32,982 bases of DNA from a bacterium (lineage in GTDB: Bacteria > Patescibacteriota > Saccharimonadia > Saccharimonadales > Saccharimonadaceae): the NCBI GenBank assembly GCA_030431855.1, contig JAUIII010000010.1, forward strand, positions 1 through 32,982, in the 5' to 3' direction. Shown here in pieces: positions 8,352 to 19,196 of this stretch. The translations under genes and the position numbers were made by a program. The notes below the pieces were generated by a model. The model ran no database searches. It was not told the origin of the DNA and saw nothing but the letters and a program-made list of their open reading frames with translations. Position 1 is the stretch's first letter. Each line of letters begins with the position of its first letter.

Positions 8352-8388
8352 TGGTGGGGGTGGCTGGGATCGAACCAGCGACCAACAG
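8352..8388 (-). repeat. Exact 37-bp duplicate of the tRNA 3' half (T arm, acceptor 3' strand, CCA)
   Basis: TGGTGGGGGTGGCTGGGATCGAACCAGCGACCAACAG is identical to 8407-8443 within the adjacent tRNA. Confidence 0.9.
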
Positions 8389-8406
8389 TAGGTAAAGACT
8401 TTCCTC

Positions 8407-8482
8407 TGGTGGGGGTGGCTGGGATCGAACCAGCGACCAACAGGTTATGAGCCCGCTGCTCTAACCGCTGAGCTACACCCCC
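8407..8482 (-). tRNA. tRNA with CAU anticodon, probably tRNA-Ile2 (lysidine type); CCA encoded
   Basis: RC: GGGGGTGTAGCTCAGCGGTTAGAGCAGCGGGCTCATAACCTGTTGGTCGCTGGTTCGATCCCAGCCACCCCCACCA; full cloverleaf. D-arm to T-arm resembles E. coli Ile2 (GGTTAGAGCAG...TTGGTCGCTGGTTC) more than Met. Confidence 0.85.
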
Positions 8483-8530
8483 GCTACCAGAGGAAAATCT
8501 TTACAACTTGTTAATATGCTCGCTCGGGGT

Positions 8531-8556
8531 CCCCGCGAAATTCTGATTTCGTGGGG
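8531..8556. repeat. Hairpin-forming inverted repeat
   Basis: CCCCGCGAAATTCTGATTTCGTGGGG: near-perfect stem. Confidence 0.7.
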
Positions 8557-8663
8557 TGGGGCAGTTGAGCTACACCTCCCATGGTTCTGTTGGGTATTGT
8601 AGCACAGCGCCAGAGTATTTTACAGAGGTGAAAGCCAAGATGATATAATATATACGAAATATC

Positions 8664-9110
8664 ATGAAAAACAGAAACCTACAAAAATTCTACTACCGCC
8701 TACGGCACGATTACCTCACCATGAACAATGTGGTGTTAGGCGTGGCGTTGTTGGTGGCTGCTGGGTGGACGTGGGGATCTATGCAAGCGATGCAGCGTAA
8801 TTACGCACTGCAGAAAGACCTCGATAATAAGCAGCGCCAGGTAACCCTGCTGCAGCTCGAAGCAGATAAACTAAAGTACGAGCAGAATTATTATCGTAGC
8901 GACGAATATAAAGAGTTGGCCGTGCGCGAACGGCTTGGGTTGGTATTCCCCGGCGAGAAGGTGTTGATATTGCCGCCAAATTCAGAAGAAGCCAAAGCCG
9001 CTGATGCCGCGTATACCGACAAAAGGGTAGATAGGCCGGCACAACCGAATAATCTTGAACAGTGGGTAAACTTTCTATTTGGCGGTACCTACCGCGACTT
9101 GAACAAATAG
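8664..9110 (+). CDS. Septum formation initiator (DivIC/FtsB-like)
   Basis: Single TM, coiled-coil (ALQKDLDNKQRQVTLLQLEADKLKYEQNYY), then SDEYKELAVRERLGLVFPGEKVLILP, typical of DivIC/FtsB. Confidence 0.8.
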   Translation: MKNRNLQKFYYRLRHDYLTMNNVVLGVALLVAAGWTWGSMQAMQRNYALQKDLDNKQRQVTLLQLEADKLKYEQNYYRSDEYKELAVRERLGLVFPGEKVLILPPNSEEAKAADAAYTDKRVDRPAQPNNLEQWVNFLFGGTYRDLNK

Positions 9111-18180: not shown

Positions 18181-18357
18181 ATGAACAAATCAGTAATTCT
18201 ATTGTTTGCAGCGGTGTTCGGTACACTTGGCGCCTACGTGTCTGTGCTATTTGGTGACAATAGTTTACTAGGCGGTTGGAGTATCCTGTGTAGCACGCTT
18301 GGTGGCTTTTTCGGCATTTGGCTGGCGGTATGGCTTGCGAAACGTTTTGAGTGGTAA
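18181..18357 (+). CDS. Small two-TM membrane protein, 58 aa
   Basis: MNKSVILLFAAVFGTLGAYVSVLFGDNSLLGGWSILCSTLGGFFGIWLAVWLAKRFEW; stop TAA overlaps the tilS ATG by one base. Confidence 0.75.
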   Translation: MNKSVILLFAAVFGTLGAYVSVLFGDNSLLGGWSILCSTLGGFFGIWLAVWLAKRFEW

Positions 18358-19196
18358 TGAAATATATTGTGGCAGTCAGTGGCGGGGTGGACTCGGTAGT
18401 TTTGCTCGATATGCTAGCTGCATCAAATGAGCACGACCTGGTTGTCGCTCATTTCGATCATGGTATCCGCGACGACAGCAAAGATGACGCTCGTTTTGTA
18501 GCCGCGCTAGCTCATGCATATGGACTACCGTTTGAAACGAGGCGCGAAGAACTGGGGGCCAAGGCGAGTGAAGAAACGGCACGTCAGCGCCGCTACCATT
18601 TTTTGCACCAGCTGGCTAAGAAATATAGCGCAGAAATAGTAACCGCCCATCATGAAGACGATGTGATTGAAACTATCGCTATCAACATAGAACGGGGAAC
18701 TGGCTGGCGAGGGCTAGCGGTAATGAGCGGCAGCATCTACCGCCCCCTACTCGACATGACAAAATTTGAAATATATGAATATGCGCTGCGACACGACTTA
18801 GAGTGGGTAGAAGACGTAACGAACACGAGTCGGCAATATCTGCGCAATCGAATTCGTTTTCGCATTGCCCAGTATCTTACGCACGAAAACAAAAAACTAC
18901 TGGTTGCCGCCTGGCTACAGCAGCGCGAAATACGAGCTGCAATTGCAGGCGAATGCGACACAGTTCTTGGTACGCAAAATGTCTACTCGCGATATTTCTT
19001 TACGCACATCGACGAACAAACAGCACTAGAGTTACTGTGGTCGATTGTAGAGAAACACCATGCAAGTCTTACGCGCCCGCAGCGCAAACGACTACTTCAT
19101 GCAATAAAAGTTTTGCCAGCAGGCGCAACCTTTCAGGCGGGTAACGGTATTTCGCTTCATCTCACGAAGCGAGAATTCGTTGTCAAAACAGAGTAA
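18357..19196 (+). CDS. tilS: tRNA(Ile)-lysidine synthase
   Basis: PP-loop SGGVDSVVLLDML, VAHFDHGIRDDSKDDARFV, TAHHEDDVIETIAINIERGTGWRGL, YLRNRIR. Located upstream of ftsH as in many bacteria. Confidence 0.93.
   Translation: MKYIVAVSGGVDSVVLLDMLAASNEHDLVVAHFDHGIRDDSKDDARFVAALAHAYGLPFETRREELGAKASEETARQRRYHFLHQLAKKYSAEIVTAHHEDDVIETIAINIERGTGWRGLAVMSGSIYRPLLDMTKFEIYEYALRHDLEWVEDVTNTSRQYLRNRIRFRIAQYLTHENKKLLVAAWLQQREIRAAIAGECDTVLGTQNVYSRYFFTHIDEQTALELLWSIVEKHHASLTRPQRKRLLHAIKVLPAGATFQAGNGISLHLTKREFVVKTE

Follow-up and report, generated by a model that had tools for sequence, protein, structure and literature searches.

We analyzed a window of 32,982 nucleotides, the whole stretch of DNA under study, which is contig 25 of the 28-contig, 830-kb genome of a Saccharibacterium (G000). 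Along its minus strand the locus comprises a worn 5' piece of a tRNA gene, a hairpin, a tRNA-Ile(CAU) gene and an exact 37-nt copy of the 3' half of that tRNA. All four pieces had been described in a sequence-only reading and were recovered at the same positions. Absent from that reading was a 19-bp inverted repeat, 8504-8486 with 8410-8392, that takes in the ACCA end of the tRNA. The features are:

8664-9110, plus strand: DivIC/FtsB-like gene, divergent; the syntenic anchor for comparing relatives
8596-8606, minus strand: extended -10-like box TGTGCTACAAT, upstream of the outer 5' piece, located by eye
8561-8580, minus strand: degenerate outer 5' piece, acceptor 5' strand to D-arm of a broken tRNA-Ile2
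8531-8556, minus strand: strong hairpin CCCCACGAAAT-CAGA-ATTTCGCGGGG, inserted in the outer D-arm
8505-8525, minus strand: possible worn remnant of the outer anticodon arm, GAGCGAGCATATTAACAAGTT versus GAGCAGCGGGCTCATAACCTGTT, a weak likeness judged by eye
8486-8504, minus strand: leader arm GTAAAGATTTTCCTCTGGT of the 19-bp CCA-embracing stem
8407-8482, minus strand: intact tRNA-Ile(CAU), CCA encoded
8392-8410, minus strand: trailer arm ACCAGAGGAAAGTCTTTAC, which opens with the 4-nt ACCA end of the tRNA itself
8352-8388, minus strand: outer 3' half, an exact 37-nt copy of tRNA positions 40-76
18351-19196, plus strand: PP-loop ATPase gene, best read as TilS (PF01171, 7e-47)

The 37-nt segment at 8388-8352 was identical to tRNA positions 40-76 (BLAST, whole genome, E = 1e-14) and is separated from the tRNA by a gap of 18 bp. 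The outer 5' piece at 8580-8561 is degenerate (GGGAGGTGTAGCTCA versus GGGGGTGTAGCTCA), and its similarity taken alone was marginal, at 15/22 against a background of about 10-14/22. It starts 16 nt past the -10-like box, the position at which the tRNA starts in clean relatives with a simple tRNA gene; these relatives carry TATAAT-like boxes at the place matching 8596-8606. Better 5' pieces were found at that position in relatives with the same nest, and one of them (G005) has a different hairpin at the place matching 8531-8556. The 37-nt 3' copy is exact whereas the 5' piece has decayed, and the outer parts therefore appear to differ in age. The 246-nt strand gave a folding z-score of -8, due in part to the tRNA and its duplicated half. 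Rfam searches at the nest matched tRNAs only, with no known RNA family or intron; a group I or other tRNA intron was rejected, as there was no Rfam intron match and the outer exons are worn.

The genome contains three distinct CAU tRNAs, one each for Ile2, fMet and elongator Met, and a pattern search of the genome did not yield a second intact Ile2. The inner tRNA is thus a CAU tRNA additional to fMet and Met in a genome with a TilS-like gene, as expected of a lysidine-type tRNA-Ile2; TilS is the enzyme that turns a CAU tRNA into tRNA-Ile2. As the only Ile2 gene of the genome, with a TilS-like gene in the same window, the inner tRNA gene is probably essential.

The sequences of the CCA-embracing stem differ between members of the genus. 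Across five Ile2 genomes (G000, G001, G003, G005 and UBA6572), 11 of the 19 stem pairs were changed on both sides, with 0, 0, 0, 2 and 1 mismatches in the five stems. The pairs were aligned by hand from the CCA outwards because a MAFFT alignment moved G001 by one column. The comparison provides strong evidence that the stem is a selected helix. Among about 157 distinct tRNAs from the fetched Saccharibacterial loci, strong CCA-embracing stems were present only at Ile2 of these five genomes and at Gln(CTG) of G000, two further low energies being artefacts at contig starts. The Ala(GGC) gene of G000 has a weaker stem that does not include the whole CCA. Transfer RNAs fetched later added stems at Pro(GGG) of G011 and Gln(CTG) of G029. 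Among the tRNAs examined, strong stems are restricted to nested tRNAs and two likely relatives, UBA6572 Ile2 and G000 Gln. No stem was seen at loci that have copies of both ends with a terminator between the tRNA and the 3' copy, where the copies lie at about 160-176 nt.

In G000, tRNA-Gln(CTG) (C20:11887, plus strand; locus L206) has a long CCA-embracing stem of about -32 kcal/mol and no outer halves; its nested counterpart is the G029 Gln locus (L292). As the stem is present in UBA6572 Ile2 and G000 Gln with no outer halves visible, it may have roles besides insulation, or the halves at these two loci may have decayed. By burying the CCA, such a stem could interfere with RNase P and the CCA end. 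RNase III is encoded in the genome (PF14622, E 2e-39), so that the long compensated helix (19 bp, 11/19 pairs) and the nuclease gene expected of a leader-trailer processing stem occur together.

The sequence-only reading had proposed a tRNA inserted into another tRNA and had pointed to related genomes as the place to check it. The comparison bore this out: three further species of the genus (G001, G003 and G005) carry a nest at the Ile2 locus, which is syntenic in the genus and adjoins the divergent DivIC-like gene. In G001, the outer 5' half is intact (36 nt); about 80 nt are inserted past the anticodon, followed by the inner tRNA with its stem and an outer 3' half that carries a 70-nt element (C) in its T-loop. 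G003 has no outer 5' half and carries the same 70-nt C element at the same T-loop site as G001. In G005 a hairpin occupies the D-arm of the 5' half, an outer 3' acceptor strand was not seen, and the inner tRNA looks foreign, matching a tRNA of another genus at 71/76 positions and its own genus at no more than 65/76. A pattern search of 394 genomes of the family found the Ile2 form of the nest in G000 and these three members of the genus only.

Nests of other isotypes were found elsewhere. At tRNA-Pro(GGG) of G011, another species of the genus, the outer tRNA (CGGGGTT to the anticodon loop) is followed by an element of a second family (H), a TATAAT box, the inner tRNA between its stem arms, and an outer 3' half ending AACCCCGACCA. 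At tRNA-Gln(CTG) of G029, from another genus, an outer 5' half has H in the anticodon loop and a second H-like element in the T-loop, with the inner tRNA again between stem arms and a partial outer 3' end. Similar nests are found in the interior of contigs of 845 kb, 623 kb and 198 kb that were assembled independently, which makes an artefact of assembly unlikely.

We further evaluated the stem by partition-function folding, taking as the measure the probability of correct inner acceptor pairing with native or scrambled leader and trailer. Over six nests the native values ranged from 0.86 to 0.998 and the scrambled values from 0.04 to 0.85: G000, 0.997 versus 0.37; G001, 0.998 versus 0.74; G003, 0.993 versus 0.85; G005, 0.992 versus 0.83; Pro(GGG) of G011, 0.991 versus 0.04; and Gln(CTG) of G029, 0.863 versus 0.41. 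Pro and G000 showed the greatest effect. In G003 and G005, which have lost much of the outer tRNA, the fold is already mostly correct, the stem adds little and the effect was small. The earlier suggestion that the second 3' half could compete for the 5' acceptor strand thus found support in silico, in the drop from 0.997 to 0.37 at the G000 locus. Scrambling both arms may also create new mispairings, and the folding results are therefore support for the role of the stem rather than proof of it.

We consider it probable that the locus is a nested tRNA gene, broken by small loop-targeting elements, in which an intact copy insulated by the stem serves as the rescue. The original tRNA-Ile2 would have been broken by small structured elements in its arms, leaving the worn 5' piece and the 3' half, and the complete tRNA-Ile2 within the anticodon/variable region of the broken one would be the sole working copy. 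The inner tRNA and the outer halves would be transcribed as one RNA; no terminator lies between them, so the transcript would carry the competing halves. The 19-bp stem would draw the inner 5' and 3' ends together and lock the correct cloverleaf. It would then probably be opened by RNase III-type cleavage and trimming, ahead of RNase P and end maturation; a role for RNase III is suggested by analogy with rRNA processing. The nest may have arisen through elements that target loops, with a tandem duplication, or a recombination event at the tRNA, as the later step. Most likely, the added stem insulates and presents the only working tRNA-Ile2 among its own fragments.

Copies of tRNA ends were not confined to Ile2. 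About 10 of the 40 tRNA genes of G000 are adjoined by exact copies of one end. A BLAST search with the 40 tRNAs recovered exact 3'-end copies of 17-21 nt (T-loop to 3' end) located 135-151 nt downstream of their parents, Leu(TAA), Leu(TAG), Phe, Glu(TTC), Ser(TGA) and Asp, and exact 5'-end copies of 21-25 nt upstream of Arg(TCG) and, twice, of Ser(GGA); Ile2 also has a copy. The only tRNA-end match away from its parent in the G000 search was weak (90% over 20 nt, E 0.31). The tRNA and the 3' copy are separated by a terminator and a structured element. The 3' copies are on contigs C7, C8, C12, C15 and C26 (L193, L194, L198, L219 and L224), with a terminator, a T-arm piece in reverse complement and a structured element ahead of each. 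Broken tandem copies were seen upstream of intact tRNA-Ser, Arg and Leu.

At least three families of structured elements, all absent from Rfam, occupy the D-, anticodon- or T-loops of tRNA-end copies. The X element is a two-hairpin core ending GCGTTCATCC, without an Rfam match. A model (R1) built from three G000 copies, which match by construction, detected 39 copies, spread over 18 of 61 relatives; in 144 further genomes from the phylum sample it detected none. X sits in T-arm copies beside intact tRNAs: at 26 of 30 loci (L241-L270, including all five G000 matches) an intact tRNA on the same strand precedes the element by 48-63 nt, and 16 of the 30 terminate with at least 12 nt (mostly 18 nt) copied exactly from the 3' end of the adjoining tRNA. 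The tRNAs with exact terminal copies are Glu, Ser, Gly, Trp, Asn, Pro and fMet, and the Asp copy is exact save for its last two letters. G010 retains an intact terminal copy at the Glu locus, whereas that of its sister G001 has decayed, as expected of relics, not of conserved genes.

The H element (TGAGGACTGCC.GTGGCAGTCC.CAAGG..., not in Rfam) occurs in G000 at C7:15028-15106 (minus strand) and C14:27274-27352 (plus strand), and the analyzed loci are L284-L313. A model (R3) built from two copies found about 100 copies in 30 of 61 relatives. Most copies that could be placed on a tRNA start after position 22-25 (D-arm), 37 (anticodon loop) or 50-54, and after insertion past 50-54 the tRNA resumes at 53-57 (T-loop); a minority have no tRNA-like flank. 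Near-complete tRNA copies broken in the T-loop by H were observed at L294 (G081 Leu-CAG), which adjoins an intact tRNA copy, and at L300 (G063 Gln-CTG), near which none was seen. Derivation of H from HEARO, suspected from its TGAGGAC motif, was rejected, as there was no Rfam match. The C element was found in T-loop or D-loop copies, with one copy (L047) elsewhere, in a sample of loci largely drawn from around tRNAs; the C model gave no convincing copy in G000.

The families are patchy, occur at many tRNA hosts and are associated with exact repeats matched to each tRNA, and we infer from these features that X, H and C are mobile. No clean empty site for X, H or C was obtained in the G001/G010 or G002/G007 comparisons. 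The flanks of the Ile2 locus are 93-97% identical between G001 and G010; the two genomes differ not by a clean insertion but by a replaced tract of about 0.8-1 kb, which starts at the tRNA 5' half and extends about 1 kb downstream. A recent clean gain in G001 was rejected because the whole tract differs, and loss in G010 is at least as likely; the G001 tract resembles G012 (69%), whereas no genome compared resembles the G010 tract, and the nest may therefore have been lost from G010. Similarly, a candidate empty site for X at Ser(TGA) in G002/G007 was rejected, as the 3' flank is replaced and not merely without X. Among nine element-bearing genomes tested, RVT_1 was found in G001, G011 and G028 and was not found in the other six (G000, G003, G005, G029, G080 and G081), so that a reverse transcriptase is not required in cis as mobiliser.

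As a tentative proposal, which we consider less likely than not, gene-less structured elements of the X, H and C type insert in tRNA loops, leave an exact end copy together with an intact tRNA, and spread among tRNA genes, the nested tRNAs with clamps being a rescue state. If correct, they would represent a small mobile element of a new class, for which the RNA loops themselves may be the point of entry, and the clamp would be a new way of insulating a tRNA precursor.

The sequence-only reading had also offered a relic of tyrosine-recombinase integration at a tRNA 3' end, in which the Ile2 3' end served as att and the island was lost, leaving the tRNA (attL) and the 3'-half repeat (attR). The exact 37-nt repeat beside an intact tRNA is the classical signature of such an event, and exact 3'-end repeats at six other G000 tRNAs look att-like; the same element families, however, recur at many tRNAs, each with its own end copied. 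This explanation was not supported as stated and is unlikely: the tRNA and the repeat are only 18 bp apart, none of 20 window proteins tested was an integrase, the outer 5' half and the CCA-embracing stem are left unexplained, and in G001 and G003 the C element breaks up the 3' half. The nested relatives already disfavour it. Viral contigs scanned with the intact-tRNA form of the repeat gave no match, and a broader scan gave generic tRNA matches.

A plain tandem duplication, by slippage or unequal crossing-over, with one copy worn by deletions and palindromic insertions and the stem incidental, would agree with the broken tandem copies at Ser, Arg and Leu and with the worn outer parts in G000 and G003. 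We regard it as unlikely, since the arrangement is nested rather than tandem, stems in five genomes with 11/19 pairs compensated are not incidental, and the G005 inner tRNA is closer to another genus than to its own. Another reading takes the whole nest, inner and outer parts together, as a single functional RNA, either a tRNA-like scaffold that has expanded or a second tRNA produced by splicing, and not as a relic. It is suggested by outer acceptor strands that are still complementary in G001 and G011 Pro and by elements that replace loops and leave the stems. It is nevertheless very unlikely: in G000 the outer 5' half is degenerate with an acceptor mismatch, in G003 it is absent, G005 has no visible outer 3' acceptor strand, and terminal copies decay in sisters.

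The bacterial 16S and 23S rRNAs are enclosed by leader-trailer processing stems that are RNase III substrates. The nest resembles them in its long leader-trailer stem around a structured RNA, the compensatory changes and the encoded RNase III; in G000, unlike the rRNAs, the stem encloses a single tRNA, starts at the CCA end and is tied to nesting, and cleavage is only predicted. Mobile DNA classically lands at tRNA genes. Their role as attachment sites for integrative elements, and the tRNA fragments of such elements, have been reviewed (PMC9897764); att sites share with our loci an intact tRNA and a direct repeat of one tRNA end. In G000, however, both outer halves are present with no island and no integrase found nearby, and the Saccharibacterial loci add a tRNA within a tRNA, a stem around the tRNA and element families at many isotypes. 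The disrupted tRNA-Thr of Caldiarchaeum subterraneum has a 5' fragment as a direct repeat upstream of the intact tRNA with inserted DNA between (PMC3293823), an arrangement like ours; there the host is an archaeon and the insert carries a putative recombinase gene, whereas the Saccharibacterial inserts are gene-less structured elements of about 100 nt, with 3' and nested forms and a clamp stem as well. REP, RPE and MITE palindromic repeats (PMC3733652, PMC10969869) are likewise short, gene-less, patchy and repeated hairpin elements, but X, H and C lie mostly in tRNA arms beside the same intact tRNA, often with exact tRNA-end repeats.

Provisionally, in a literature search of mainly non-subscription journals, we did not find the combination of a nested tRNA, a CCA-embracing clamp and loop-inserted elements, nor a precedent for an essential single-copy tRNA inside its own broken predecessor with a compensated clamp at the CCA end. 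The locus makes two questions testable: how a tRNA precursor escapes misfolding with extra halves in cis, and how small gene-less elements invade essential tRNA loops without killing the cell. For annotation, tRNA fragments in Patescibacteria need not mark islands.

Beside tRNA-fMet, G001 has a 2.2-kb insertion, absent from its sister G010, that encodes a 608-aa reverse transcriptase (L316:3162-4988, minus strand) and is possibly a group II intron behind the tRNA terminator. Several assemblies of relatives break in or at tRNA-Ile2 (G018:C80 and C12, G008:C26, G024:C4 and C13), and in G018 the contig ends overlap; such breaks are a possible sign of repeated halves or strain variants.
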